Part shown: piece after piece, positions 8,482 through 39,861 of the stretch | Layout of the letters: every line of letters begins with the position of its first letter | Numbering within the stretch: the stretch's first letter is position 1 | Source of the DNA: Chloroflexota bacterium | Lineage (GTDB): Bacteria; Chloroflexota; Anaerolineae; Caldilineales; Caldilineaceae | Assembly (NCBI GenBank): GCA_003577005.1 | Contig: QEUW01000019.1 | Span: 1-44,770, forward strand | DNA: 44,770 nt | Direction of reading: 5' to 3' | Program-made: the position numbers and the translations under genes | Notes under the pieces: generated by a model | Seen by the model: only the letters and a program-made list of their open reading frames with translations | The model's database searches: none | Told to the model about the DNA's origin: nothing

Positions 8482-8568
8482 TGGTGCCGCAGGAGGGACT
8501 TGAACCCCCACGGGAGTACTCCCACTACGCCCTGAACGTAGCGCGTCTGCCAATTCCGCCACTGCGGC
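8482..8568 (-). tRNA. tRNA-Leu (CAG)
   Basis: A class II tRNA on the minus strand with an encoded CCA end. The acceptor GCCGCAG pairs with CTGCGGC and the discriminator is A. The anticodon stem CTACG/CGTAG holds loop TTCAGGG, giving CAG, which reads CUG leucine codons. The long variable arm GGGAGTACTCCC and T loop TTCAAGT confirm the class. It has its own promoter and terminator. Confidence 0.97.
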
Positions 8569-8781: not shown

Positions 8782-10548
8782 TTAGATACCACCCTGCCCC
8801 ACTACGACCGCAATCGCCCGCTCGCGGTCATGGCTCAGGCTGATCGACCACTGACCCAGCCCTAACCCCGCCGCGCGCACTGCGGCCGCGCCGTGCAGAT
8901 GGAGCGCCGGCTCACCACTTTCGGCCACCCGCACAATCTCGATATCGGTCCAGGTGATGCCATGACGCCAGATGCCTGTACCCAGCGCCTTGGCCACCGC
9001 TTCTTTCCCGGCAAAGCGTGCGGCCAGCGACTCAGTGCGGCCATTGCAGGCGGCCCGTTCGGCTGCGGTGAAGACGCGCTCGAGAAAGTGCGCGCCATAC
9101 CGCTCCACCGCAGTGCGGATACGCGCGATCTCGATCAGATCGACGCCTGTGCGCACTCCACTGTTCGCCGCGCGCAGCCGGCGATTCTCCATCTGCAATT
9201 TGAGAATTTCATCGGCCAGCAACCGGTTGTAGTTGACCTGTCGCTCGATGATTGGGTCGAGATAGGCTTCTTTGACGTGGGTCGTGCTGTTACGGCGGAC
9301 CCATTCGATGAGCCGGCCCACGATAGGCGACCCCGAACGCACCCGATAGCTGCGCAGCGCAATGTCTGACTCGCGCATGAGACGCCCCATCGGAGATTGC
9401 GCAGCCGGCGGCGGCTCCTTGGCTAGTTCCGCTGCTTCGGCTAGCACGGTGCGCAAATTGTGGGCAAAAACAGCCGGGCTAAAGGCCGCAGCGCGTGCAT
9501 ACCCTCGTTCTACTAGCGTGGCGCGTAACTCCGCGTCGGTCAACAGACGCTGTACCTGGCGCGCCAGATCCTCGGCGTCACCGGGCTTGCAGAGGAGGCC
9601 GGCGGCGCGCTCCTCGCCTTTTTCGGCATCGAGCACCCAGGGCATGGCGCCCGTCGCACCCGCCACGACTGGTGTACCGGCGGCCATCGCCTCGACCAGC
9701 GGCACGCCAAAGCCTTCATGCTGGCTGGGCAAGACCACCACGTCAGCCAGGTGGAGATAGGGCTCGACCGCATCCACACGACCGGTGAGGGTGACCCGGT
9801 CGGCGACCCCCAAACGGGCAGCCTGGTCGGCCAGCCGCACCGCCAGTTCGCGCTCAGCCGGGTTGTCCTCTTTGCTGCCGACCACCAATAAGTGCAACAC
9901 CGGGTTGCTTGTGCGCAGCCGGGCCAACGCAGCGACGGCGGCATCGATCCGTTTGTTGCCCGCGACTCGCCCGATAAAGAGCATAACCTGTTTCCCCTCC
10001 AGCCGCCACTGCGCCCGCAACTGCGCCAGTGTGGCCTCGGACGGGCGCTGGCGGATGGTGTCCACCGGCACACTGATCGGGATGATGCGGATGCGTTCCA
10101 TCGGGTAGCCAGAAAGGTTGTGCAACTCCCGCCCGATGTAAGGGCTATCGGCAATAGCCAGGTGCGCAAACCAGGCCAGTTGTGTCCGCAGTTGCGAAAT
10201 CTCCATCTGCTCGCGCCCGGCCTCCACCTTCCACAGTTCCGGTGGTGTCACCCCATGATAGGCAAACAGGGTTGCACCCTTTGTGTCGCGAATCCGTTCA
10301 GCCAGTGGATACCAGCTTGGGTATTCGAGGATAAAGAGATCGCTCTGCGGCGAATAGCCGGCGTAATCGGTCTGGCGCACCAGAGGACGGATGTCATCCG
10401 GCGTAGGGCCAGGAGGATAATTCGAGTAAATCTGCGTCCGGATACCATCCTGGCGGAGGATACGCGCAATTTCGATCAGATGGTTGCCGGTCGCATCCCC
10501 CGTCCGAACGCTCGGACCAATGAGGTCGGCAGTCTGAAAGTTGATCAT
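8782..10548 (-). CDS. Glycosyltransferase family 4 fused to holo-ACP synthase
   Basis: A 588-residue fusion. Residues 1-380 are a GT-B, GT4-type transferase, with FIGRVAGNKR near 190 and the nucleotide-sugar motif HEGFGVPLVEAMAAG near 277-291. Residues 400-445 hold a tether module (VRSGSPIVG, EWVRRN, ERQVNYN) also found in the next gene upstream. Residues 465-588 are a complete AcpS: GVDLIEIARI, FAGKEAVAKALG and the terminal SISLSHDRERAIAVV. AcpS transfers phosphopantetheine from CoA to acyl carrier protein. No stop separates the parts. A GTG at 9154-9156 falls exactly where a stand-alone AcpS would begin, but without a well-spaced ribosome site. The gene start overlaps the upstream stop (ATGA). 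It is the last gene of the polysaccharide operon. Confidence 0.9.
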   Translation of the reverse strand: MINFQTADLIGPSVRTGDATGNHLIEIARILRQDGIRTQIYSNYPPGPTPDDIRPLVRQTDYAGYSPQSDLFILEYPSWYPLAERIRDTKGATLFAYHGVTPPELWKVEAGREQMEISQLRTQLAWFAHLAIADSPYIGRELHNLSGYPMERIRIIPISVPVDTIRQRPSEATLAQLRAQWRLEGKQVMLFIGRVAGNKRIDAAVAALARLRTSNPVLHLLVVGSKEDNPAERELAVRLADQAARLGVADRVTLTGRVDAVEPYLHLADVVVLPSQHEGFGVPLVEAMAAGTPVVAGATGAMPWVLDAEKGEERAAGLLCKPGDAEDLARQVQRLLTDAELRATLVERGYARAAAFSPAVFAHNLRTVLAEAAELAKEPPPAAQSPMGRLMRESDIALRSYRVRSGSPIVGRLIEWVRRNSTTHVKEAYLDPIIERQVNYNRLLADEILKLQMENRRLRAANSGVRTGVDLIEIARIRTAVERYGAHFLERVFTAAERAACNGRTESLAARFAGKEAVAKALGTGIWRHGITWTDIEIVRVAESGEPALHLHGAAAVRAAGLGLGQWSISLSHDRERAIAVVVGQGGI

Positions 10549-11543
10549 GGCTGCAATCGGTTCTCAGCAGGAGGGTTGAGTGATTGAGGATCGCCGGTGG
10601 CTTGCGAGCGCCTGCTCAACTCTGCCAGGCGCTGTTCCAACCGGCGGATTCGTTCCTCGAGCGCGGCCTGCTCTGCGCCTTTTTGATGGATAAGGGTAGC
10701 CAGTGCCTGGGCGACCTGGCGGTTAAAACTCTCCTGCCGCTCAAACGTTGGATCGATATAGGGTTCACGCAAGTGCGACGTCAGGTTGCGCCGCACCCAA
10801 GCAATCAGCGGCCCGACGATAGGGAGACGAGAGCGCACAACATAGTCGCGTTGTGCGGTCGCCGCACCCGCCAGCAGCTTCTGCGCTTCTGCCTCTGACA
10901 CTGCACCGGTGAGACCATCCGCTCCGGTGCCCGGCGTTGTCTCGCTAGCTCGTGGTGGCGGGTGCAGTTCTTCCCATGCCGGCAACCGGCCAAAGGGATA
11001 CGGGCGATTGGGCAGCCAGGCAGTGGCCGCGGCTACTGCCTCGGTCCAGAACAGTGCATACTCAGCCGCTGAAGACGCTGCAGTCACTGGCAGCACATGG
11101 ACGGGCGCTGCCCGATAGTCGTGTCGTTCGGCCAGACTGCGGGCCGCCTCTTCCCCTTCAGCCACCACCAGGTCGACGCATGTAATAAGCGATGCCAGGG
11201 CGGGTTGGCCGGCCTCCCCACCGCCCGCCGGGTCGTAATGATAGTAAAAGATCACAGCGCCCCGCTCCAACTGCGGCAATACCGCCAGGAGGGGATAGAA
11301 CCCCGCCCCGTGAAAGATGAAGAGTTCACTTGCGGCGAAATACGCATCGTCGGTGAGAGCCGTATCCGTACTGACGACCACCCGCGCTGGCAACGACTCG
11401 CTGTCTACCGGCTGTGCTGGCGGGCGGGCAGAGTAGATGAAAACCTTGTCACCCCGGCCATGAAAAAAATGTGCCTGGCTTGCCACCCGCTGGCTAATTG
11501 CGTCTTCTGTGTTCAGGTAGGGTGTGATCAGACTGACTTGCAT
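10545..11543 (-). CDS. Half-length GT-B-like protein with tether and coiled-coil tail
   Basis: 332 residues. The first 190 resemble the N-terminal Rossmann half of a GT-B glycosyltransferase (VSLITPYLNTEDAISQRV, then FIFHGAG and YYHYDP). The nucleotide-sugar-binding C-terminal half, with its EGFG-type motif, is absent. A Pro-rich linker leads to the module VRSRLPIVGPLIAWVRRN (about 233-250), then DPTFERQESFN and a coiled coil (about 290-318). The tail closely matches that of the downstream GT-AcpS protein. It may be an inactive partner or scaffold. Its TGA overlaps the next ATG, which implies translational coupling. Confidence 0.75.
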   Translation of the reverse strand: MQVSLITPYLNTEDAISQRVASQAHFFHGRGDKVFIYSARPPAQPVDSESLPARVVVSTDTALTDDAYFAASELFIFHGAGFYPLLAVLPQLERGAVIFYYHYDPAGGGEAGQPALASLITCVDLVVAEGEEAARSLAERHDYRAAPVHVLPVTAASSAAEYALFWTEAVAAATAWLPNRPYPFGRLPAWEELHPPPRASETTPGTGADGLTGAVSEAEAQKLLAGAATAQRDYVVRSRLPIVGPLIAWVRRNLTSHLREPYIDPTFERQESFNRQVAQALATLIHQKGAEQAALEERIRRLEQRLAELSRRSQATGDPQSLNPPAENRLQP

Positions 11544-11591: not shown

Positions 11592-11632
11592 CTACGTTCT
11601 ACGTTCTGCATTCTGCGCTCTACGTTCTACGC
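11592..11632. repeat. Family B short repeat array at a glycosyltransferase 3' end
   Basis: About four units related to CTACGTTCTRC (GYAGAACGTAG on the minus strand) form the 3' end of the glycosyltransferase gene and include its TAG stop. The same family occurs at 21387-21430 and 23436-23461. Confidence 0.8.
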
Positions 11633-12872
11633 CCTCGCCGACCCTGGTGCGGGCACGGCGCAGGGTGCGGAGATAGACACCTTCTACAATGCCAGCAATG
11701 CGGCCAATTGTATAACGGCGGTGAAGCTTCCGATTCCCTTGCCGGCCCATGTGGTGGGCGAGCCGCTGATTGCTAATGAGGGCCTGGATAGCAGCTAGCA
11801 ACTGGCCCGGCTGCAGCGGGTCTACCACAAAGCCATCGACGCCGTCGTCGATCAACGAAGCGACCGATTGAATATTGGCGCCGATCACCGGTTTGCTGTA
11901 AGCCCACGCTTCCAGATAGACAATACCAAACGCTTCACCGGTAGACGGCAGGGCGAGCACATCACAGGCGGCCAGCGCATCCAAACGCTGCTCTTCGTCC
12001 ACTGCCCCATGCACCACCAGCCCGTCCAGTTCCCCATACTGGCGCCAGAGCATCTGCGAGTACGTAGTCTCCGGGCCGACTGCCAGTAGATAGAGGTTGG
12101 GGTGTTGGCGCCGCAGGGTGACAAAGGCTGCCAACAGTTGCGATAACCCCTTGTACTCCGTCTTGCGGCCCAAAAAGAGGAGCACAAAACTATCCACCGG
12201 CAGCCCCAGACGTTGCCGGCACTTGGCTGCGTCGCGTGGCGGAAAACGGGCAAGCGACAGCCCATTCCCCCCTTGCACCACCGCTTGGTCGGGCAGTTGG
12301 CGCTGGAGAAACTCTTGTTCAGCGCGAGTTACTGCCAAAACGGCATCGCTCCCACGAAGAATACGCCAAAGATAGTTCACATCGTACGTCTCTGGCTGTT
12401 CCACATGGATGTGGGGCGTGAGAACGATGGGCACCCCCCGTATCCGCGCCGCAAGATAGGCCGTCCAGGCATGGGCGTAGTGCAACTGGTTGATGTGTAT
12501 CAGATCGTAGCCACGCACCCGCCGCAAGAGAGCCCAAAAGAGCGACGAGCTGACCGGCCCATTGCCCAGGAAGATCGCCGGCGCTGCGAGGGATGAGCGC
12601 GTCTGATGGTAGGTACTCAGCCCCCACTCCAGGAGGCGCCAGGTGTGCGGGCCGCGTTGCCAACTGGAAAAGCGGTGGATATAGACACCGTTGCGCACCT
12701 CAAAAGGTGGCAACTGGCTACGCCACGTGTGGTAGTCGCACGACTGGCTGGTAAAGACGGCTACTTCGTGGCCGCGCTGCGCCAGTTCCTCGGACAGGTC
12801 GGTGATGTACCGTTCCGAACCACCGATGGCCGGCGCGTACTGGTGGGTCACGTGCAATGTGCGCAGGGTCAT
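11592..12872 (-). CDS. Glycosyltransferase family 4 protein
   Basis: 426 residues, GT-B fold. N-terminal HVTHQYAPAIGGSERYITDL is the typical acceptor-side glycine-rich opening of GT4 enzymes. FLGRKTEYKG near 220 and GEAFGIVYLEAWAYSKPVIG near 305 mark the donor-binding half. It is expected to act on the cytoplasmic side, adding one sugar to a lipid-linked glycan; the sugar cannot be read. Its ATG overlaps the preceding stop (ATGA). The last dozen or so residues (VERRAQNAERRT) and the TAG stop are encoded by a GAACGTAGA-type repeat and look like a random extension beyond the conserved domain. Confidence 0.93.
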   Translation of the reverse strand: MTLRTLHVTHQYAPAIGGSERYITDLSEELAQRGHEVAVFTSQSCDYHTWRSQLPPFEVRNGVYIHRFSSWQRGPHTWRLLEWGLSTYHQTRSSLAAPAIFLGNGPVSSSLFWALLRRVRGYDLIHINQLHYAHAWTAYLAARIRGVPIVLTPHIHVEQPETYDVNYLWRILRGSDAVLAVTRAEQEFLQRQLPDQAVVQGGNGLSLARFPPRDAAKCRQRLGLPVDSFVLLFLGRKTEYKGLSQLLAAFVTLRRQHPNLYLLAVGPETTYSQMLWRQYGELDGLVVHGAVDEEQRLDALAACDVLALPSTGEAFGIVYLEAWAYSKPVIGANIQSVASLIDDGVDGFVVDPLQPGQLLAAIQALISNQRLAHHMGRQGNRKLHRRYTIGRIAGIVEGVYLRTLRRARTRVGEGVERRAQNAERRT

Positions 12873-14101
12873 GCCGCTTGCGCTTCCTCGTAGATCCGCA
12901 GGTGGGCTGCCACGTGCGCCGATAGGCTGAGCCGGGTGCGCGCAGCCTGCACACAGGAGCGCCGCATCTGTCGCCGCTCCCAGGGCGCTTTGCGGAAGTG
13001 CCGCGCCACCTGTGCAGCCAGCGCGGCCGCATCGCCCACAGGGTAGAGATACCCGGTTCGATCCTCGTCGATCAACTCCACTGTGCCGCCAAAACGGGAG
13101 CCGGCCACTGGCGTCCCCATCTGATAATTTTCGTAGATAACCAGCGGCGAGTTCTCGTGCCAGACGGAGGCGACAATGCTCAGGTCGGCGGCGGCGAAGA
13201 GCGCTCGCATATCAGCAAACCCCACCGAACCAAGCATGACCACCGGTGGCCCATAGGAACGAAACCGTTCCAGCAGACGCTCCTCGCCGCCACCGGCAAT
13301 CACCACACGGGCGTTTTCGACCCCCATCAGGATCCGCGGAATGGCGGCAAGAACGACCTGGGCGCCCTTATGTTCGTGGCCGCCGCCGGCAAAGACCAGC
13401 GTCGGCTGGCTTCCGGCGCCACGGACAATCTGTTGCACAAGCGGGTGGCGTGGCGCAGCCGCCGGTGGCTCATCGATGCCGTAGGGCACCAGCCGAAACC
13501 GCTCATGCGCATATCCTGCCTCGACATGGCGATCAATGAGCGCCTGGCTAGGCGAGATAAACGCGTGGACATTTGCGGTCAAGGCGGCAAAGAGACGGCG
13601 GCGTTGCGGCACCGGCGCCCAATAATCATAGCGGCGAAAGCAGCGGCCACAGCCGTTGGGGAAGCGAGCCACATCACAGTACGAGCCGTCGGCGCGGTAA
13701 CGCATGTTGTTTGGGCAGAGCAACCACAGGTCGTGGAGCGTGTTGACAACCGGCACACCCGCCCGCCGGCAAGCCAGAAACGGCGCCAGCGAGGCTCCCG
13801 AGACATTGTGGATATGGACAAGCGTGGGTTTAACGGCGGCCAATTCGCGCAAAACCACCCGGTAGACCCGCAGGTCTACCGTCTCTTGGAGCGGCCAGTG
13901 CGTAGAAAAATGCACACGGTGCACAGGGATATGGTCGACCTGATACCATTCGTCGGCGGCAGTGGCGCCCCGATAGTTGATCGACAAGACCGAGCATTCG
14001 ACACCGGCGCGTTGCATTGCGCGGCAGGTGTGGTAGAGCGAAACTTCGGCGCCACCCTTAACTTCGGGTGGAAACCAGTTGGTGATGTACAGAATACGCA
14101 T
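12869..14101 (-). CDS. Glycosyltransferase family 4 protein with cysteine-rich insert
   Basis: 410 residues, GT-B fold. It opens MRILYITNWFPPEVKGGAE. An N-domain insert after HDLWLLCP carries four cysteines (CP..., YCD, GCGRC), a pattern seen in a subset of GT4 enzymes where it may bind a metal. The donor half has VFAGGGHEHKG near 237 and a SPLVIYENYQMGTPVAGS segment near 320 in place of the usual EGFG motif. The ATG shares one base with the upstream TAA (TAATG), and the stop overlaps the next start by 4 nt, so the three genes are tightly coupled. Confidence 0.92.
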   Translation of the reverse strand: MRILYITNWFPPEVKGGAEVSLYHTCRAMQRAGVECSVLSINYRGATAADEWYQVDHIPVHRVHFSTHWPLQETVDLRVYRVVLRELAAVKPTLVHIHNVSGASLAPFLACRRAGVPVVNTLHDLWLLCPNNMRYRADGSYCDVARFPNGCGRCFRRYDYWAPVPQRRRLFAALTANVHAFISPSQALIDRHVEAGYAHERFRLVPYGIDEPPAAAPRHPLVQQIVRGAGSQPTLVFAGGGHEHKGAQVVLAAIPRILMGVENARVVIAGGGEERLLERFRSYGPPVVMLGSVGFADMRALFAAADLSIVASVWHENSPLVIYENYQMGTPVAGSRFGGTVELIDEDRTGYLYPVGDAAALAAQVARHFRKAPWERRQMRRSCVQAARTRLSLSAHVAAHLRIYEEAQAA

Positions 14102-16779
14102 TATTGCTCTACTCTGGGCGTGACGGCCACATTCGCCTGTGCAGTAGTCGCTTCCACCTGTGCCAGTTGGTGGGTCAGGGCGGCATTGGCCAGTTCGAGC
14201 TGGTCGATCTGGTGTTGGAGACTGGCCAGTTGCTGCATGTGCTGCCAGTTGACCGCATCCTGCTGCTGTTGCAGTTGGAGCGGCGATACTCGTACCTTCA
14301 CATTGTACCAGAGGCGACCGAGGGCGTTAAATACGAGCCTCTGTGTAGATAGGGACTCAGGTGGCGGCGCCGGAAGGGCCGTGAACCGGCTCTCCTCGGA
14401 CTGCGCCAGTTCGCGCAACGCAGCAACCAGCTCTCGGACCTCCTGATCGTCAGCATGCCAGTGAGTTTTGAGCAAGAGAGGCGCTGCGAGCACGGCATCC
14501 AGGTAGGCGCTCTGGACTGCCGCATCCGCACGCATCGCCTGGCTCCGTTCGTACGGTAGAAAATCACGCCACCACTCAGCGGGCGAAAGATGTTTGAGGG
14601 CAAGACGCAACCGGCCCCGGTGATAAAAACGCTGCACCGCCCTCTCATCGATGCGCGAGGAGGTCTCCTGATGTTCGAGCACTGCTTCGGCACAGTACCA
14701 GACCTGCCACCCGGCCGCCCGTGCGCGCAAACAGTAGTCCACATCCTCATAATAGCCGGGCCAGAAGCCCTCATCGAGATAGCCGATGGCATCGATCACC
14801 CGGCGGCGGATCGCAAATGCCGCCCCCGTCACCCATTCGACCGGCCGGGATTGGTCCCCTTGTCCCTCATCCGCATCCCCGTGGCTAAAGTGGATGCCGT
14901 TCAGGTCAGGGCGCCGGAGATGGCCACCGGTGTGTTGTAGCGTTTTGCCGTCAGGATAGTAGATCTTGCACCCCACGATGCCCGTTGTCCGGTCGGCAAA
15001 GGCATGTACGATGGCGCGCACCCAACCAGGGTAGACCCGCGTATCCTGATTGAGCAGGATCGCGATCCCCGCGGGCGCGGCGGCTAACCCTTGATTACAA
15101 CCACCGGCAAAACCGCGGTTGACCTTGTTGCAGATGAGCCGGACCATGGGATAGTGCTGAGCGATAAAGTCGGCTGAACCATCGATCGAGGCATTGTCAA
15201 CGGCGACGATCTGAATCTTCAACTCCGGTGCAGCCTGTTGTTGAGCCAGCAGCGCATCGAGACAGTTGCGCAGATAAGGCATGCCGTTACGCACAGGAAT
15301 GATGACCGAGATAGTCTGGAGATCGCTCATCCTTGGCCTTTCCAGGTGTGATGTAGACACAGTGGCTGGGCGCATTGGAGGATGTTCTCTCCTCCGGCGC
15401 GGGAGAAAGTGGCCGACCCACTTCATGAACCGTATAAAGCGGCCGCGCTCATACGCGCCGGTCAAGTCGCGCCAGTAGTCGCGTTCCTGACGCAATTGGG
15501 CGAGTTCGACTGCCGGCTCATCATCTTCGAAGCTCTCGACAAAGGAACGGTCGGTCGCCATCCAGGGTTCACGACAGTAGGCGACCAGGGGCGCTGCGGC
15601 CTTCTCCCAAGTCAGTGCATAGCGCGCCGTAGCAAAGGCCTCTGTGCGCGCCTGCGCCGGTTCCGCCAGCAGCATCTGGATTGCCACCGCCAGCCCCTCG
15701 ACATCGCCGTAATCGACCACAGCCCCCAGGCCATGTTGTTCCACCAGTTCGCTGGTGGCGTCACCCCGGGTCGCAATGATGGGCAGCCCGACCCAGATAT
15801 AGTCGAGCACACGGCTACGAAAGGCCAGTCGTGTCTCCAAGGTATCAAAGTGCAGACTCAACGCCAGATCGCTTTCCAACAACACATTGGGCCAGTCGGC
15901 ATAGGAGACCCAGTCGCCAAAGAAAACCGCCTGGTCAACCAACCCCAGTTCGGCGGCAACCTGGCGAGCCTCTGCGGTTGCGGTGGGCATTCCTGCCACC
16001 TCTGGATTGGGGTGGCGCGTGCCAGGGAAGATCAGCTTGACATCCTGGCGCGTTTGCCGGACCAGGGCCACGGCGCGGATGGCTGTCACTGGGTCGAGCC
16101 AGGGCCACAGCCCACCGCCCCAGAGCAGGAGCTTGTCGCTTTGTTCGATGCCGGGCCACACCCCTTTGACCACCGATCGCGTCGGTTGCGCCGGTGTCGA
16201 AGGGAGGCCATAGGGCACTACGTCGATCAGCTTACGCAGCGACGGGTCGTGTTGAAAGGTAGCCGGATTGATGCGCCCGCTGGCCTCAAGCTGGCCGAGC
16301 CACCAGTCGCGCTGGCGTTCGCTGGCGCACAGATAAAAATCGCCAATCAAGTACCGAGAGCGATTCACAACCAGCTGTTCATGCCACATTGCCAACTGTT
16401 CTGTCACTGACATCTGCTTGGGCAGCGCCAGCCACTCGGCCAGGAGCGGGTCATAGCCATCGACCACGATGTAGGGTGTCTGCACCGGCAGCAGCGCCAG
16501 TTGATCCACCATTGCGCTTGGCGCCAGGCAGATCGTATGGGTGCGCAGGTAAGTGACCAGTGACGACCAGTTAGCCGGATCGTAGTGTACCCAGTCAAAG
16601 GGCTGCGACTGCGCCTTGTGTTCGCCGGGCGCTGCGGGCGCGGCCAGCGTCGTAGGCAGATGCTGCGCCAGCACACGGGCCAGGTGATAGTAGCGGATGC
16701 CGGGCCCGGCCATGTGTTCGCCCACCCGATCATGGCTGATAATTAAAAGACGGTGCGACACTGTATCGGCAGCACTCAC
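14101..16779 (-). CDS. Two-domain glycosyltransferase: GT-B domain plus GT2 domain
   Basis: 892 residues. The N-terminal GT-B-like domain (about 1-410) opens with RLLIISHDRVGEHMAGPG and has LLLWGGGLWPWLDP near 210. A middle link runs to about 480. From Met 484 a GT2 (GT-A fold) domain begins: ISVIIPVRNG, VAVDNASIDGS, LLNQDTRV with the DXD-like site, and GYYEDVDYCLRA. This is the pattern of rhamnosyltransferase-type GT2 enzymes. The C-terminus has a WYNVKVRVSPLQLQQQQ tether and a coiled coil. Met 484 has GGAAAGG six bases upstream, so the GT2 half could also be made separately. The stop overlaps the next start by one base. Confidence 0.9.
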   Translation of the reverse strand: MSAADTVSHRLLIISHDRVGEHMAGPGIRYYHLARVLAQHLPTTLAAPAAPGEHKAQSQPFDWVHYDPANWSSLVTYLRTHTICLAPSAMVDQLALLPVQTPYIVVDGYDPLLAEWLALPKQMSVTEQLAMWHEQLVVNRSRYLIGDFYLCASERQRDWWLGQLEASGRINPATFQHDPSLRKLIDVVPYGLPSTPAQPTRSVVKGVWPGIEQSDKLLLWGGGLWPWLDPVTAIRAVALVRQTRQDVKLIFPGTRHPNPEVAGMPTATAEARQVAAELGLVDQAVFFGDWVSYADWPNVLLESDLALSLHFDTLETRLAFRSRVLDYIWVGLPIIATRGDATSELVEQHGLGAVVDYGDVEGLAVAIQMLLAEPAQARTEAFATARYALTWEKAAAPLVAYCREPWMATDRSFVESFEDDEPAVELAQLRQERDYWRDLTGAYERGRFIRFMKWVGHFLPRRRREHPPMRPATVSTSHLERPRMSDLQTISVIIPVRNGMPYLRNCLDALLAQQQAAPELKIQIVAVDNASIDGSADFIAQHYPMVRLICNKVNRGFAGGCNQGLAAAPAGIAILLNQDTRVYPGWVRAIVHAFADRTTGIVGCKIYYPDGKTLQHTGGHLRRPDLNGIHFSHGDADEGQGDQSRPVEWVTGAAFAIRRRVIDAIGYLDEGFWPGYYEDVDYCLRARAAGWQVWYCAEAVLEHQETSSRIDERAVQRFYHRGRLRLALKHLSPAEWWRDFLPYERSQAMRADAAVQSAYLDAVLAAPLLLKTHWHADDQEVRELVAALRELAQSEESRFTALPAPPPESLSTQRLVFNALGRLWYNVKVRVSPLQLQQQQDAVNWQHMQQLASLQHQIDQLELANAALTHQLAQVEATTAQANVAVTPRVEQ

Positions 16780-19700
16780 GACTCAGCCCCCCCACCCAAT
16801 CGCCAACGTAGATAATTGGTCGCCTCGCGCATCAGCCCTGCGGCGCCCTGGGTGCGCAACGCCTGCCAGCTCTTTTGCGCCAACCGGCTTCCTTCGCGCA
16901 CGCTGTGTTTCCCCACTTGCCAGAGTGCGTGCGAGAGCGGTTGTGGGGGGACCGTCCAAGGCGCGGCTGCTACCCGGCCCGCCGATGCAGCTTGCGCTTG
17001 ATAGCCAGGATGAAAGAGCAATTGTCCCCGCAACCGCCGCCCCCCACGGAACAACTGTGTCTCCGGGGGCGCCGCCCAAGAGCGCCAGAGGGCATGGGCA
17101 AAGGTCTGGCTATCGGCGGCCAAGAGGGTGAGCCGATAACTCCGCCCGTTTGAGTAGGGCTGCGGTGCAAAGTCCAACAGGAATGGCCGGTCAGACGGGA
17201 TTTCGGTAGCAAGGATCATGCGGTCGACGATGGGTGTCTCTGGCTGAACCAGGTCATATAAGACGATGTGCAGCCTGCTACCGGTTGCCGCCGCGGCAGG
17301 GGTGAAGAGCAACTCGATCTGGCATAAGTGAGAAGCGGTGGCGGCAAACTGTTGCTCCACAGGCGCAGGACCAATGGGCAATTTGCCCAACGGCCGCTTG
17401 TTGAGCACCCAGCCGGGTGCCTGCTCCAACACCTGCACCGGGGCGCTGCGCAGCAAACTCACCGGGCGGCCAGCGCGCTGATAGGCTTGCAACGCCTCTT
17501 CGGTACGGCGCAATTGTTCGGCCAGGGCCGCCTTTTCCTCCAGTGTACGGCGAAGCAGCGTGTGCAGGTGAAGAGTCTGCCGGGTCGTTTCTTCATGCCG
17601 GTCGAGCAACTGGTGAATCTGCCAGAGCAGGCCGTCCGCATCTTGTTCGTAGACACGGCGGGTGAAGCGGCGTTCCGTGGGGGGAGGCGCATGGTCGAGC
17701 AAGATGCGTTCGATCTGCCGCGCCGAGGACTGCCAAGAATGTTGCTGCACCTGTTCATAGGCCCGCTCGGTGATGGCGGTGTGCAGCGTCTTGTCCCAGA
17801 GCAATTCGAGGACGGCATCGGCGATGCTCTCGGGCGTGGGTTCGGCCAACAGTGCGTTCTCGCGGTCGACCAAGAGCCCTTCCACCCGTTCGCTACAGAG
17901 ATCGATGACAGCGCACTTGCAGGCCATCATCTCGAAGGGGACAAAAGAGGGGTTGGTAAGCGAGAGCACAAGCCCCACATGGCAGCTTGAGTAGAGTGTC
18001 GCCAGCTCCCACGGGTTGCGGATACCAGCGTTCATGCCCATAAAGGGCATAGCCGGCAGATCGTTGGCGCCGAACAGGATGATTTCGGTCTCTGGGTATC
18101 TCGCTTTCACCAGGCGCAGCGCCTCGATCCCAAGTTCATAGGCACGGCGTGGAGTGCTGGGCCGCGCATAGAAGGCTACGCGCGGGTGGGCGGGCCGGGG
18201 CTGTGGTTGCGGCCAGTAGACATCTAGATCGACGCCAAAATCGAAATGGTCGGCCTGGGCTTGAAATCGTTCTCGTATAAGCCGGGCCAGCCATGGCCCC
18301 AGTGTGATACAGTGAAAACCCTGGCGGTAGCTATTTTCAGCGCGCAGATAGTCGGAACCTACCGGGTAAAACAATGGCTCAAAATCTTGCACAAAATAAT
18401 AGCGGCGGCCAGGGTTGGGGAGGGTGAGCACATCGTTTACCGTGGACCAGTAGGTGGCGATGGTTGCATCGGCTTCCTGGACGCGCCCGCTCCAACGGTG
18501 GAAATGGGCGCCGGTGACGAGGATATTGTAGTCGACAAAACGGCGGATCTCCTCGGCAGAAAGATGGTGCATCTTCTCCACCGGCACGACATAGACATGG
18601 CATTCGTGCCCAAACTCCACCAGGTAGCGGATCATGCGAAAGACGCCCAAATGGCCCCCAGAGCCGCGAAAAGGCTCAGTGACAATCCAGTTGAGGACGA
18701 GGGGAACGTCAGGGGGTGGGGCGTGGGGTGTGGGGTTTGGGACTGTATGCTCGTTTTCCGGTTTCTGCTGCCCAATCCCCTGTCTCCAGTCTCCAGTCTC
18801 CAGTCTCCGCGTCTCGCCATTGCCGGCTCCTATCGTACTCACTTTGGCGAGCGTTTCGGCCAGATCGGCGGTGCGGGCGGCAAGGCTGTAGCGTTTGATG
18901 ACTTTCTCACGGGCAGCCTGGCCGAGGCGGTTGCGCAGTTCGGGCTGGGTGATGAGCGTGTCGAGTGCATCGATCCACTCTGGCGCAGTGGCGGCCAGAA
19001 AACCATCCACACCGGATTCGATGGCATACTCAAATGGGTCAATGCGCGACGCCACGGTTGGGATGCCCAGCAGCCCGGCTTCGACAAACTTGATCTCGCT
19101 CTTGGCGCGGCAGAAAATATTGCCTGGCTCCAGCGGCGCCAGGACGATGTCCAGCCGGCTTGCCAGACTCAGGTATTCCTGCCAGCCGGTAAGCGGATAG
19201 CGGCGCACACGTTTGCCAAAGAGATCGAGCGCCGGCGGCGTCGCCAGTGGCCCCATGAGCCACAGCGTCACCTGGGGATAGCGGCTCAGGATGTCAAGCA
19301 GCGCTGGCACGGCCACCTCAAAATCGATATCGTGCGTGGGCGTGCCGCTGCCGTAACCAATAATGATCCTATCATTCTCCTGACGTTCTGGGCCGATATA
19401 GAGTTGGTCGCCGAGCACTTGCATCTCGCGACCGACAGCGTTGCGATGGACCCAGGCCGGTTTACCCCGGCGTTGCGCCAGTTCGGCCAGGAGTGGGCTG
19501 GCGGCAAGGACGCCATCGCAGGCGTTGAGGGTAGCGAGTATTCGCTGCACGCCATCGACATAGAGTTCTTGTTCAGCAGGAGAGAGCCGCAAGACGCCCC
19601 GGTGCCAGGCGGTCATGGCCGGCTCGAAGACGAGATCATCGGTGTCGAAGAGCACCAGTTTCCCTTGCGCTTGCATCTGGTCGATGAGGCGGCGTAAGTT

Positions 19701-19901
19701 TGCTGTCAGGGCGGTGCGTTGCAAGATGAGCAGGTCATATCGGTCCGCCACGCTGGCCGGGAACGGTTGATCGACCCAATCTTGCACCTCGGCCTGGATG
19801 CCCAGTTGGGCAAATTGCTCCTGCAGATGGGTGCAGCGATAGAGTTTAACGGTGGCATGGAGACATCCGGCCAGGATCAGAGCTGAGGAGATTGGGTGCA
19901 T
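16776..19901 (-). CDS. Two-domain glycosyltransferase: GT4-like plus WsaF-like, with beta-sandwich tail
   Basis: 1041 residues. Domain 1 (about 1-360) is GT4-like and clearly paralogous to the whole neighbouring gene at 19992 (shared YRCTHLQEQ, LLILQRT, LFDTDDLVFEP, KSEIKFVEAGLLGIPTVAS). Residues 362-398 are a low-complexity linker coded by repeats. Domain 2 (about 400-730) resembles WsaF-type rhamnosyltransferases: PFRGSGGHLGVFRMIRYL, YYFVQDFEPLFYPVG, FYARPSTPRRAYELG, NPSFVPFEMMACKC. After a coiled coil (about 740-800) comes a beta-rich domain (about 820-950), possibly carbohydrate-binding, and a tail ending ATNYLRWRLGG. It overlaps the next gene by 4 nt. No ribosome site precedes the ATG, where repeats begin. 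Confidence 0.88.
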   Translation of the reverse strand: MHPISSALILAGCLHATVKLYRCTHLQEQFAQLGIQAEVQDWVDQPFPASVADRYDLLILQRTALTANLRRLIDQMQAQGKLVLFDTDDLVFEPAMTAWHRGVLRLSPAEQELYVDGVQRILATLNACDGVLAASPLLAELAQRRGKPAWVHRNAVGREMQVLGDQLYIGPERQENDRIIIGYGSGTPTHDIDFEVAVPALLDILSRYPQVTLWLMGPLATPPALDLFGKRVRRYPLTGWQEYLSLASRLDIVLAPLEPGNIFCRAKSEIKFVEAGLLGIPTVASRIDPFEYAIESGVDGFLAATAPEWIDALDTLITQPELRNRLGQAAREKVIKRYSLAARTADLAETLAKVSTIGAGNGETRRLETGDWRQGIGQQKPENEHTVPNPTPHAPPPDVPLVLNWIVTEPFRGSGGHLGVFRMIRYLVEFGHECHVYVVPVEKMHHLSAEEIRRFVDYNILVTGAHFHRWSGRVQEADATIATYWSTVNDVLTLPNPGRRYYFVQDFEPLFYPVGSDYLRAENSYRQGFHCITLGPWLARLIRERFQAQADHFDFGVDLDVYWPQPQPRPAHPRVAFYARPSTPRRAYELGIEALRLVKARYPETEIILFGANDLPAMPFMGMNAGIRNPWELATLYSSCHVGLVLSLTNPSFVPFEMMACKCAVIDLCSERVEGLLVDRENALLAEPTPESIADAVLELLWDKTLHTAITERAYEQVQQHSWQSSARQIERILLDHAPPPTERRFTRRVYEQDADGLLWQIHQLLDRHEETTRQTLHLHTLLRRTLEEKAALAEQLRRTEEALQAYQRAGRPVSLLRSAPVQVLEQAPGWVLNKRPLGKLPIGPAPVEQQFAATASHLCQIELLFTPAAAATGSRLHIVLYDLVQPETPIVDRMILATEIPSDRPFLLDFAPQPYSNGRSYRLTLLAADSQTFAHALWRSWAAPPETQLFRGGRRLRGQLLFHPGYQAQAASAGRVAAAPWTVPPQPLSHALWQVGKHSVREGSRLAQKSWQALRTQGAAGLMREATNYLRWRLGGGAES
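18709..18817. repeat. In-frame repeat linker inside the GT4-WsaF fusion (CTGGAGACTGGAGA and G-rich tract)
   Basis: On the minus strand three near-tandem copies of GGAGACTGGAGACTGG are followed by a CCCCAC-rich tract (CACACCCCACGCCCCACC). They encode RRLETGDWRQGIGQQ and PNPTPHAPPPD. The stretch looks like intergenic microsatellite yet stays in frame between two enzyme domains. Confidence 0.85.
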
Positions 19902-23422: not shown

Positions 23423-24775
23423 CTATCCCTTCTCATGTTCTGCGTTCTGCGTTCTCCGTTCCTCCTGGACCGCGGGCTCGTGCAACCACGTCCCATTCAG
23501 GGTGACCAGGCCGTAGCTCTCCCCCGTCTGGCCGCGGTAGACATGAAAAGGGTAGAGCCGGTCATGATAATCATACGTCTCAGTGTCAGCCTCATCAACC
23601 ACGGCGACCGACAGGAGATAGGAGCCCTCCAGCAGCGACAGGGCCGGCACCCGGTAGCTGATCACCCCCGCGCCCTGGACACAGGCGATAGACAAGCCGG
23701 CAAATTTTGTATTGGGGCCACAGATGTGGGTGCCGCTCTGGTGATAGATGGCGATGCCAAAGATCGGCTGTTCGACTGGCTCCTCGGCTTCATAGAAAAG
23801 CCGCACGGTCAACCCGGCACCGGTGCGAAAACGGGTGCGCGCTTCGCCCTGGTCGTCGCACAGTTCGACCTTTGTGATCCGCACGCGCCCGCTGCCCCAA
23901 CGGCGCACCGGCGCCGACTGGACGACGCCATTCTGACCCGGCCCACCTGTCGCATTTGAGGGCTGGTCCTCTTCGACGGGGTCGGGCTCGAGCTCGCCTT
24001 CCTTTTCCATCAGGTGCTGCGTGTAGGCCATGATCACATCGGTCGGGTGGCCATCGGCCCGCAGTTCGCCCTGCTCCAGCCAGATGACCCGGCGGCAGAT
24101 CGATTGGATGGTGTTGAGATCGTGCGAAACCAGGATCAACGTCCCGCCGCGGTCACGGAACTGTTGGATGCTGGCCAGGCACTTACGTTGGAACGAAGCA
24201 TCACCCACCGCCAGCACCTCATCTACCAGCAATAGATCGGGCGTTGTCTGGATGGCAACGGCAAAACCGAGCCGGACATACATCCCCGACGAGTAATGTT
24301 TGACCGGCGTGTCGATAAAGTCGCCCAGTTCGGCGTAGCGAATGATGGCATCTAGCCGGCGGTTCATCTGAGCGCGGCTAAAGCCATAGATCGATCCGTT
24401 GAGATAGATATTTTCGCGACCGGTCAGTTCGGGATGGAAGCCGGCGCCCAGTTCCAGCAGAGATGAGATGCGACCGTTGATGATCAGGTCGCCCTCAGTC
24501 GGCGTGATGACGCCACTGAGCACCTTGAGCAACGTGCTCTTGCCCGACCCGTTGGGGCCAATGATGCCGACGCTTTCGCCTCGCCCGATAGAGAAGCTGA
24601 TCTCGCGCAGCGGCCAGAACTCATTCGGCTCGCTCTGGCTGCGGCGAAAAAGGCGGATAAAACCTTCTTGCAGAGAACGCTGGTGGGTGCGCTGGAGTTC
24701 ATACCGCTGTGACACCTTGCGCAGTTCGATCTGCGGCTGCCCCGGTTCCCAGCGCTCGCTGCGGTAGACGCTCAT
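23423..24775 (-). CDS. wzt: ABC transporter ATP-binding protein with Wzt C-terminal domain
   Basis: 450 residues. The nucleotide-binding domain has Walker A GPNGSGKST at about 72-80, signature YSSGMYVRLGFA near 160 and Walker B LLLVDEVLAVGD near 180. It belongs to the O-antigen/teichoic-acid exporter group. Residues 290-425 form a Wzt-type beta-sandwich (RITKVELCDDQGEARTRF onward), which in known systems recognises the finished or capped glycan before export. It pairs with the permease upstream, overlapping by ATGA. The last residues EERRTQNAEHEKG are coded by family B repeats. Export across the cytoplasmic membrane is expected; whether the cell has an outer membrane is not shown here. Confidence 0.94.
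   Translation of the reverse strand: MSVYRSERWEPGQPQIELRKVSQRYELQRTHQRSLQEGFIRLFRRSQSEPNEFWPLREISFSIGRGESVGIIGPNGSGKSTLLKVLSGVITPTEGDLIINGRISSLLELGAGFHPELTGRENIYLNGSIYGFSRAQMNRRLDAIIRYAELGDFIDTPVKHYSSGMYVRLGFAVAIQTTPDLLLVDEVLAVGDASFQRKCLASIQQFRDRGGTLILVSHDLNTIQSICRRVIWLEQGELRADGHPTDVIMAYTQHLMEKEGELEPDPVEEDQPSNATGGPGQNGVVQSAPVRRWGSGRVRITKVELCDDQGEARTRFRTGAGLTVRLFYEAEEPVEQPIFGIAIYHQSGTHICGPNTKFAGLSIACVQGAGVISYRVPALSLLEGSYLLSVAVVDEADTETYDYHDRLYPFHVYRGQTGESYGLVTLNGTWLHEPAVQEERRTQNAEHEKG
23436..23461. repeat. Family B short repeat array at the wzt 3' end
   Basis: Three units of GTTCTGC or GTTCTCC (GCAGAAC on the coding strand) code for the last residues of Wzt just before its TAG stop at 23423-23425. 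Confidence 0.75.
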
Positions 24776-25620
24776 AGCTCTTCTCCAAAGCGGTCGCTAT
24801 AGCGGATAAAGAGCCAATACCCCACCACCAGCACGATCAGCGCTGTCACCGTCGTCCGCACAAAGAAATCCAGGTCGGTGCGATAGCCGTAGTAAAGCAG
24901 GTCGCGGTAGATGTTGATCAGCGAGGCGATGGGGTTCAAAATATAGGCCAGCCGCTGCACATTGAACGGGATGCCGTAGAGGGTGTATGTGCTCGGCAGC
25001 GTCGTGACCGCATAGAAAACAGGGGTCAAAAAGAACCAGGCAAGCATGACCACGTTCATGACGATCATCGTATCGCGGTAGAAGACGTTGAGCGTGCTGA
25101 GCATGAGCGCCATGCCGATGGTAAAGCCGGTCTGGATCAAAATGACGAAGGGTAATGTCCAGAGCCAGGGGCTAAAACTTGCCCGAAAGATGAGCAGCGC
25201 AACAAAGAGAATCACAAAAGCCAGTAAAAAATTGACCAGTTGCGCCAGCACAGTGGCAATGGGCAACACCTCGCGCGGAAAATAGACCTTCTTGATCAGG
25301 TTGGCGTTGCCGACGACGCTGTTGACACTGCTCATGATGCTGTCGGAGAAGAAATACCAGGGCAGCAGACCACAAAGCACAAAGAGTGGATACTTGTCTA
25401 TCTGCTGTTCGGGCGCCAGCACGCTAAAGACCACGGTAAAGACCAACATCATCGCCAGCGGGTTGAGCAGGCTCCAGACAAAACCCAGCGCACTGTTTTT
25501 GTAGCGGGCTTTTAGTTCGCTTGCCACCAGGTTGCGAACCAACTCACGGTAACGGTAAAGCTCGTACAGCCGTCCCCACAGTTGGGCAAAGACCCCTGGC
25601 TGTTGTGTCTGACCGATCAT
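24772..25620 (-). CDS. wzm: ABC-2 type polysaccharide export permease
   Basis: About 282 residues with six predicted TM segments in the ABC-2 export permease pattern. It has an N-terminal ELYRYRELVRNLVASELKARYK amphipathic stretch, LGFVWSLLNPLAMMLVFTVVFS, and a PWYFFSDSIMSSVNSVVGNANLIKK re-entrant segment. It forms the membrane channel for the Wzt ATPase. The frame opens at a TTG (25650), but the ATG at 25618-25620 better fits the family length; neither has a strong ribosome site. It follows a secreted protein gene by about 105 bp. Confidence 0.93.
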   Translation of the reverse strand: MIGQTQQPGVFAQLWGRLYELYRYRELVRNLVASELKARYKNSALGFVWSLLNPLAMMLVFTVVFSVLAPEQQIDKYPLFVLCGLLPWYFFSDSIMSSVNSVVGNANLIKKVYFPREVLPIATVLAQLVNFLLAFVILFVALLIFRASFSPWLWTLPFVILIQTGFTIGMALMLSTLNVFYRDTMIVMNVVMLAWFFLTPVFYAVTTLPSTYTLYGIPFNVQRLAYILNPIASLINIYRDLLYYGYRTDLDFFVRTTVTALIVLVVGYWLFIRYSDRFGEEL

Positions 25621-25726
25621 GGACAATGAGCGCCTGTTGAATTTGCACAAAACGAGCAGGACCGGTACGTGCGGCCCTGCTCGTGACGAGGATAGCAGAA
25701 CTAACGGCGGTTGTAAAATTCACGCG

Positions 25727-37467: not shown

Positions 37468-39861
37468 ATGAAGCGAATAACGCTTATTATATGTGTGATG
37501 ATACTGTTGGCTTTGCTAGGCTATTCCGCACCCCCGGTTGGAACCCAAGCCGCCCCCTCGTTGATCCCCGGCGTGGGACCGACCACCCCGCACCCGATCC
37601 TCTTTGTTACCCAGCCGCCGCTGCCCGGCGATTTTACAACCGTCAACTCCGTCTTTGGCAACCACAAGGCAGGGATGCAAGAATCCACCCGCGGGGGCGA
37701 TCTGTGGATCTGGTATCCCGATGGCGCACTCAAAAATCTGACCGCTGCCGCAGGCTACGGCACGGATGGCTTCCAAGGCGCCAACGCCATTGCCGTGCGC
37801 GACCCAGCTATCCACTGGGATGGGACAAAGGCGATCTTTAGCATGGTGATCGGCGCGCCCACTGAGCAATATCAGGTGGCAACCTACTACTGGCAGCTCT
37901 ACGAAATCAGCGGGCTGGGCCAGAATGAGACGCCGGTGATCAGCAAAGTGCCTAATCAGCCGGCCAATTACAACAACATCAGCCCGATCTATGGCACCGA
38001 TGACCGCATCATCTTTACCACCGATCGTCCGCGCAGCGGCGAAGCCCATCTTTACCCCCAGCTTGATGAATATGAACTCGCCCCTACTGTCTCCGGTCTC
38101 TGGAGTCTGGACCCTGCCACCGGTGACTTACGCCTACTCAACCACGCCCCGTCGGGCGACTTTACGCCGATCCTCGACAGCTTTGGCCGTGTGGTCTTTA
38201 CGCAGTGGGATCACCTGCAACGCGACCAGCAGGCCGACGGCGACGCCAACGCCGGCACCGGCCAGAACTGTGACGGCGGCGCCACCTATGGCACCTTTAA
38301 CTATTCAGACGAGTCGGCCAACGCTGCGATCCTCGACGACCGCAGCGAGATCTTCCCCGAACCGCGCGCCTGCCGGGGTGATCTGCTGGCCGGCACCAAT
38401 CTGGCCGGGCACAGTTTCAACCACTTTCTGCCCTGGCAGATCAACGAAGATGGCACAGAGGGAGAAATCCTCAACCACCTGGGACGGCACGAACTACACG
38501 GCTACATCCCCGCCAGCATCACCGGGGATGAGAATGTCGTGGAGTACTACGGGCAGTACAGCCGCTTCAACCAGAACCGGATTCTCAATCTGTTGCAGAT
38601 GCGCGAGTCGTCTGCCACGCCGGGGCTCTATTTTGGCATCGATGCGCCGGAATTTGGCACCCACGCCGCCGGCCAGGTCGTCAGCCTCAACGCACCGCCC
38701 ACGCTGGATGCCGACCACATCCAGATCACCTATGTCACCCACCGCGATACGTCGGGCACTGATGATACGCCAGGCGCCGACCATTCCGGTCTCTATCGTG
38801 ACCCGCTGCCGCTGGCCGATGGCTCGGTCGTCGTGGCCCACACCAGCGAGACCCGTGAGGATAGAAATGAAGGCAGCCGTGAGCAGCCACAATCTCGCTA
38901 TGCGTTCCGGCTCAAAGTGCTGGCGCCGGGGGCCAATGGACACATGGCCGCCGGCCAATTCTTGACTGCGGGGATCAGCAAAAATGTCAACTGGTGGGAC
39001 CCCGATGTGAAGGTGACCTACAACGGTGAATTGTGGGAACTCCAGCCGGTGGAGGTGCGTGCCCGTCCGCGGCCCCCACGCCTCGTCGCCCCGCTGCCCG
39101 GCCCGGAGCAGCAAATTTTCGCCCAGGCCGGTGTTGATCCCATCCAACTCCGGGCCTATCTCAGCCAGCACAACCTGGCCCTGCTCGTCACTCGCAATGT
39201 GACCACGCGTGACGACTTTGACCGGCAACAGCCTTTCAACCTGCGCGTCCCCGGGGGCGTGCAGACGGTCGCCAGCGACTTTACAGCAAGCGATCAAGTG
39301 TATGATGTAACCCATCTACAGATTTTTCAGGCTGACCAACTGCGCGGCTGGACTGGTTGTTGCGGCGTCACGCCCAGAGCTGGGCGGCGGGTCATAGCTC
39401 AGGTATTACATGATCAGGCGGCGCTCGCCATCAATCCTGCCAACCCTAGCGGCCCTGACGGCAGTGTCCAGATCGCTACCGATGGCTCGGTGGCGGCCTT
39501 TGTGCCCGCCCGCCGGGCGCTGGCCTGGCAGCTCACCGACCCCAATGGGGCAGGGGTGGTGCGCGAACGCAACTGGATTACCTTCCAGCCCGGCGAGATT
39601 CGTGTCTGCGGCTCCTGTCACGGGTTGAGCGAACTGGACCAGGCAGGCCAGGCCACGCCGGCCAATCAACCACAGGCCTTGCTCACCTTGCTCCAACACT
39701 GGAAGAGCACGGTTTGCGACGGTGACGAGTGTCCCGTTGTCACAGCCACGCCCACAGCCACACCCACTGTCACCCCCACGGTTACGCCGACGCCTACGCT
39801 GGTTCAGACGCCGCCGGGAGACTTTCGCCCGCGCGCCTTTCTGCCCAATGTCAGCCGGTAA
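37468..39861 (+). CDS. Secreted mono-haem protein resembling HzsA middle/C-terminal region
   Basis: 797 residues. A signal peptide (TM about 4-20) precedes a large beta-rich, probably propeller-like domain (TDDRIIFTTDRPRSGEAH, FTPILDSFGRVVFTQWDH, GADHSGLYRDPLPLADGSVVV). RNWITFQPGEIRVCGSCHG carries one c-type haem motif (Cys 714, Cys 717, His 718), like the end of hydrazine-synthase-alpha-type proteins in non-anammox bacteria. That family link is from memory. A Thr-Pro spacer (TATPTATPTVTP, about 758-782) and FRPRAFLPNVSR end the protein, suggesting surface exposure. Haem attachment outside the cytoplasm is expected. AGAGGA lies about 8 nt before the ATG. Redox partner and reaction are unknown. 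Confidence 0.8.
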   Translation: MKRITLIICVMILLALLGYSAPPVGTQAAPSLIPGVGPTTPHPILFVTQPPLPGDFTTVNSVFGNHKAGMQESTRGGDLWIWYPDGALKNLTAAAGYGTDGFQGANAIAVRDPAIHWDGTKAIFSMVIGAPTEQYQVATYYWQLYEISGLGQNETPVISKVPNQPANYNNISPIYGTDDRIIFTTDRPRSGEAHLYPQLDEYELAPTVSGLWSLDPATGDLRLLNHAPSGDFTPILDSFGRVVFTQWDHLQRDQQADGDANAGTGQNCDGGATYGTFNYSDESANAAILDDRSEIFPEPRACRGDLLAGTNLAGHSFNHFLPWQINEDGTEGEILNHLGRHELHGYIPASITGDENVVEYYGQYSRFNQNRILNLLQMRESSATPGLYFGIDAPEFGTHAAGQVVSLNAPPTLDADHIQITYVTHRDTSGTDDTPGADHSGLYRDPLPLADGSVVVAHTSETREDRNEGSREQPQSRYAFRLKVLAPGANGHMAAGQFLTAGISKNVNWWDPDVKVTYNGELWELQPVEVRARPRPPRLVAPLPGPEQQIFAQAGVDPIQLRAYLSQHNLALLVTRNVTTRDDFDRQQPFNLRVPGGVQTVASDFTASDQVYDVTHLQIFQADQLRGWTGCCGVTPRAGRRVIAQVLHDQAALAINPANPSGPDGSVQIATDGSVAAFVPARRALAWQLTDPNGAGVVRERNWITFQPGEIRVCGSCHGLSELDQAGQATPANQPQALLTLLQHWKSTVCDGDECPVVTATPTATPTVTPTVTPTPTLVQTPPGDFRPRAFLPNVSR

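Follow-up and report, generated by a model that had tools for sequence, protein, structure and literature searches.

Is the frame that joins a glycosyltransferase to a holo-ACP synthase (AcpS) in a Chloroflexota bacterium a genuine gene, and if so, what holds two such different enzymes together? The locus lies on contig QEUW01000019.1 in a stretch of 44,770 nucleotides, here called the window, whose ORF list contains an ATG-initiated frame of 588 codons without a stop. The other two coding-strand frames over the same interval contain 12 and 13 stops, and GC3 is uniform along the gene (0.72, 0.73 and 0.74 for residues 1-380, 381-464 and 465-588, respectively). The domains follow each other as GT4, tether helix and a complete AcpS at residues 466-583 (Table 1). 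Pfam recognises both enzymes in this one frame, and NCBIfam the AcpS, as the initial annotation had proposed, and its domain borders at 380 and 465 match the structure model, a monomer in which the GT and the AcpS domains are both confident. In the fold searches the matches listed are taken up by the GT domain (residues 1-377), so that these searches bear on the GT alone.

Table 1 Features of the fused gene and its surroundings (positions in the window)
Feature	Position	Strand	Details
Fused GT4-tether-AcpS gene	8782..10548	-	588 aa; ORF, families, four full-length fused relatives
GT4 (GT-B fold) domain	9424..10548	-	residues 1-375
E-x7-E motif EGFGVPLVE	9691..9717	-	residues 278-286; motif search
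Tether module and long helix	9166..9384	-	residues 389-461; structure model
AcpS domain including GTG codon 465	8785..9156	-	residues 465-588; TIGR00516, PDB match
AcpS motif GVDLIEI	9127..9147	-	residues 468-474, Asp470
AcpS motif FAGKEAVAKALG	8980..9015	-	residues 512-523, Glu516, Lys520
AcpS motif SLSHD	8827..8841	-	residues 570-574, Ser572, His573
332-aa neighbour ORF	10545..11543	-	similar to GT N-terminal part, with the same tether
GT4 glycosyltransferase, same operon	11592..12872	-	Pfam
GT4 glycosyltransferase, same operon	12869..14101	-	Pfam
ABC exporter pair	23423..25650	-	Wzt-like ATPase with Wzt_C 23423-24775; ABC-2 membrane protein 24772-25650
tRNA-Leu, downstream of fused gene	8482..8568	-	own promoter-like site 8618-8590, terminator-like site 8425-8406

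The N-terminal part is assigned to GT4 by a match to Glycos_transf_1 above the cut-off (PF00534, residues 178-351, E 2.6e-36), by its GT-B fold and by the E-x7-E motif, a hallmark of GT4, of which both Glu residues are invariant in 12 of 12 aligned sequences. No equivalog model of the NCBIfam search reached its cut-off with the GT part. Compared to Anabaena HepE-type and related GT4 enzymes, the GT4 of the fused protein additionally bears the tether helix and AcpS. The C-terminal part matches ACPS above the cut-off (PF01648, residues 468-559, E 7.6e-14), and 2jbz_A is the nearest solved AcpS by sequence (E 2e-17). In the available part of PMC3447402, Asp8, Glu58, Lys62, Ser102 and His103 of the B. 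anthracis AcpS structure bind metal and CoA phosphate; motif and spacing place Asp470, Glu516, Lys520, Ser572 and His573 of the fused protein at these positions. The earlier claim of a full-length AcpS with its motifs is confirmed by a TIGR00516 score of 81.4 bits versus a cut-off of 59.8 (residues 467-583), with GVDLIEI starting at residue 468 and FAGKEAVAKALG at 512. The domain thus resembles free-standing group I AcpS (TIGR00516) in its full length, its score above the cut-off and its GVD, KEAxxK and SLSHD motifs, but those enzymes are normally separate proteins of about 120-125 aa, while this one forms the C-terminal end of a 588-aa protein. Since the stand-alone size of ~120 residues is exceeded, we regard it as a fused AcpS and not as a typical one.

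The same architecture occurs in relatives, as the initial annotation had suggested checking. A search that scored 7996 proteins returned 635 at E ≤ 0.001, of which the best 120 were examined, and PF01648 was also present in five of these 120: the window protein (P0001) and P0002, P0003, P0004 and P0005 with 599, 592, 596 and 597 aa. These four full-length proteins are 84, 83, 67 and 67% identical to the window protein over 99% of the length, with the same domain order and intact catalytic motifs. A partial sequence, P0129 (202 aa on a contig of 1127 bases), has a tether running into AcpS without a GT, which was probably lost to the contig end. All six fused sequences exceed the TIGR00516 cut-off of 59.8 (74.8-83.6 bits). 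The one named source among the fused relatives is a Caldilineaceae bacterium (Chloroflexota). Databases label the fused proteins as 'holo-ACP synthase' only, so that the glycosyltransferase is lost from the annotation.

Fusions of AcpS to other partners already exist, and GT4-AcpS is for this reason a new architecture of known families rather than a system of a new kind. When proteins of 323-1029 aa were searched with the AcpS part, 13 matched, namely the five GT4 fusions and eight in which AcpS is likewise joined in frame to another enzyme: an SDR/enoyl-reductase-like enzyme (P0121), Nnr-type domains (P0122-P0125, P0127) and a PF03279 acyltransferase (P0126, P0128). AcpS occupies the N-terminus in all five of the P0121-P0128 fusions that were read as sequences, whereas here it is C-terminal with GT4 as partner. 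The alpha subunit of fungal type I FAS is a large enzyme that likewise ends in a covalently joined AcpS-like PPT domain, and the FAS structures 7q5s and 4v58 match the AcpS part at their chain ends; this PPT is described as a group III PPT in the available part of PMC3447402. The fungal domain serves the carrier domain of its own complex, while the GT4 partner has no known carrier protein. No GT-AcpS fusion was found in the literature searched at the level of titles and abstract starts. Judged by sequence comparison, the fusion of GT4 and AcpS is real, conserved and rare, two well-known enzymes being joined.

The nearest unfused relative, the Caldilineaceae MAG CHL12 (loci L001 and L004), has a GT that is 76-77% identical and the same operon order as the window. 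Its GT4 stop (L004:274) and the ATG of its acpS (L004:459, 123 aa) lie on the same strand with 184 bp between them. This gap (L004:275-458) holds an interspersed repeat with inverted arms at 322-333 and 398-409, for which the genome gives 38 matches, its own copy counted and some being both strands of one copy. Apart from this single AcpS the genome encodes one longer PPTase-superfamily frame of about 280 aa, which we take from its length, and not from a model, to be Sfp-like. As GT4 and acpS lie side by side in CHL12, the fusion most likely arose from neighbouring genes, which is a simpler origin than the functional link that the initial annotation considered. The longest contig is 190643 bases for P0006 as well as P0133, an unfused GT and an AcpS of the CHL12 type, and 56111 bases for P0008 as well as P0131; these shared contig sizes make it probable that GT4 and a separate acpS lie on one contig there as well. 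The tails of the unfused GTs are alike by eye, e.g., EIAALRGQRNP in P0006 and EVEELRKQQPSA in P0008, and this similarity rather suits CHL12 having kept an unfused state. AcpS being always separate in close relatives would have spoken against the fusion; the closest relatives found are themselves fused, and the next, CHL12, is split but adjacent.

We favour, with a probability of about two in three, one polypeptide with two independent enzymes, a housekeeping AcpS placed on the C-terminus of a GT4 from neighbouring genes, with no shared chemistry. By sequence, the N-terminal part is a GT4 sugar transferase whose polysaccharide operon includes an ABC exporter, and the C-terminal part, complete and with its catalytic motifs, is a group I holo-ACP synthase. 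The latter is probably the cell's housekeeping enzyme, which would load the acyl carrier protein used in fatty-acid synthesis with 4'-phosphopantetheine taken from CoA. Adjoining GT4 and acpS genes may have lost the intervening stop and spacer to give a single gene, and the need for AcpS would then keep the frame open. Bacterial AcpS is trimeric, and one crystallised as a trimer with a 24-residue N-terminal tag, according to the available part of PMC3447402. The GT4 would be trimeric as well, because AcpS acts as a trimer, and three GT4 domains on three tether helices would surround the AcpS. The GT4 and AcpS reactions would have no common substrate and be linked at most by co-expression. If the fusion is real as a protein, a polysaccharide enzyme can carry, as a passenger, an unrelated housekeeping enzyme that is generally essential.

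The strongest alternative, although itself unlikely, is a selected coupling in which the fusion is kept to place holo-ACP synthesis at the site of glycan assembly, or in which the GT benefits from trimerisation or co-expression. That the fusion recurs, in five full-length sequences and a partial one, agrees with it; and against a by-product, its presence in proteins with no more than 67-68% identity, perhaps from more than one event, could mean selection. In a GT tree of 40 of the best 120 of the 635 proteins, the unfused P0006 (CHL12 type) is sister to P0001-P0003 (support 100/99), and the hypothesis that the five fused GT halves form a single clade is rejected (p-AU 8.8e-5), which allows for repeated fusion. 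In the tree of AcpS sequences (56 rows, 121 columns) the six fused ones fall into one weak clade (84/87) that includes P0130, an N-terminally incomplete protein that may or may not be fused, but not the AcpS of CHL12. The six without P0130 are compatible with one group (p-AU 0.097), while the test speaks against CHL12's AcpS as neighbour of P0001-P0003 (p-AU 0.017), a grouping named after the trees were seen. Since the two trees disagree, the history was not the simple loss of one stop, and since CHL12's AcpS stands apart from the AcpS halves of the proteins closest to it by GT, side-by-side genes as in CHL12 may not have been the immediate forerunner of the fusion. The trees allow either at least two fusion events or a single fusion that was later split or replaced in the line of CHL12.

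The gene arrangement also favours coupling: the last 4 bases of the preceding 332-aa ORF, at its stop, are also the first 4 of the fused gene (10545-10548), and the overlap has this size in CHL12 too (L001 4710-4713). However, Pfam named neither a carrier protein nor an acyltransferase in the part of the window ORFs that was scanned, conservation of the linker is low, and elsewhere in CHL12's order acpS adjoins unrelated genes, namely an M16 peptidase (L015, L036), a GT2 (L026) or an integrase-like gene (L014) upstream. Such varied neighbours suit a chance neighbourhood. Within this order, 42 of 46 genomes have an AcpS-region match among the matches listed (none for G007, G023, G028 and G035). 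None of the 42, with the match in G039 being partial, has AcpS fused to such a GT4, which bears out the earlier statement that AcpS normally stands alone. The AcpS frames measure at most 251 aa except in G040, where the frame has 511 aa, yet the first start codon in it belongs to an acpS of 129 aa, and in G038, where it has 461 aa by one reading and 147 aa by another. In eight genomes (G033, G034, G036, G037, G039, G040, G041 and G045) a close GT4 relative lies on another contig than acpS. Among 396 genomes drawn from the class, 352 have an AcpS match; the long frames listed there include G121 (1026 aa) and G297 (381 aa), and an AcpS motif search of these two loci did not recognise AcpS. In the one genome with the integrase-like neighbour, a phage-integrase-like gene lies directly upstream of acpS at L014:1973-2674.

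If coupling were demonstrated, fatty-acid carrier activation and surface-glycan synthesis would turn out to be physically linked, which is unexpected. Somewhat more doubtful is a selected union within the Caldilineaceae, perhaps with more than one origin, in which AcpS would act as a trimerisation hub for GT4 and tie holo-ACP supply, and through it membrane lipid synthesis, to the making of the surface glycan.

A further and less probable explanation is nested genes, where free AcpS would also or mainly be made from an internal start, either the GTG that is codon 465 or a start before it in the same frame. The tether follows the pattern VRS..P..G.LI.W.R.N.T.H.KEAY.D..E.Q..N at the GT4 C-terminus, which in its strict form is present in 84 of the best 120 of the 635 relatives; a Pfam scan reported no family for 9166-9384. 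Its helix (423-461, pLDDT about 75-85) extends to the first AcpS strand in the structure model. The tether shares 49% identity over 63 aa with the 332-aa ORF, which otherwise has only an N-terminal GT match. Mean pairwise identity among the five full-length fused proteins is 0.83 for the tether, 0.78 for AcpS and 0.71-0.73 for the GT, and only 0.35 for residues 453-465, and this least conserved part would fit a passive linker. The GTG (9154-9156) sits where separate AcpS proteins begin, and codon 453 is an ATG in the window gene. But codon 453 reads L or I in P0002-P0004, P0004 has I instead of V, M or L where codon 465 lies, and P0004, P0005 and P0129 have P/T/S-rich linkers at the AcpS junction. 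Anti-Shine-Dalgarno pairing is weak at both internal starts (-2.1 and +0.4 kcal/mol), although the gene's own start is hardly better (-2.7). Free AcpS from the internal GTG is therefore not favoured.

A sequencing or assembly error, or the accidental read-through in one strain that the initial annotation had considered, is highly improbable: CHL12 does have a stop and spacer at the junction, but the fusion recurs in four more diverged full-length proteins from several sources and one partial one, and the cluster of the window protein represents nine contigs; because of this recurrence, an assembly artefact is rejected.

In the preferred reading of two independent enzymes on one chain, the gene is the last glycosyltransferase of the ABC-exporter operon, in agreement with its earlier description as the terminal gene of a polysaccharide operon. 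Further upstream on the minus strand, the window encodes an 892-aa glycosyltransferase of GT4-type and GT2 (14101-16779) and a 1041-aa GT4-type glycosyltransferase with WsaF-like domains (16776-19901). On the plus strand, a 797-aa protein (37468-39861) has a match to HZS_alpha, the middle domain of the hydrazine synthase alpha subunit, with 41.1 bits versus a cut-off of 26.6.
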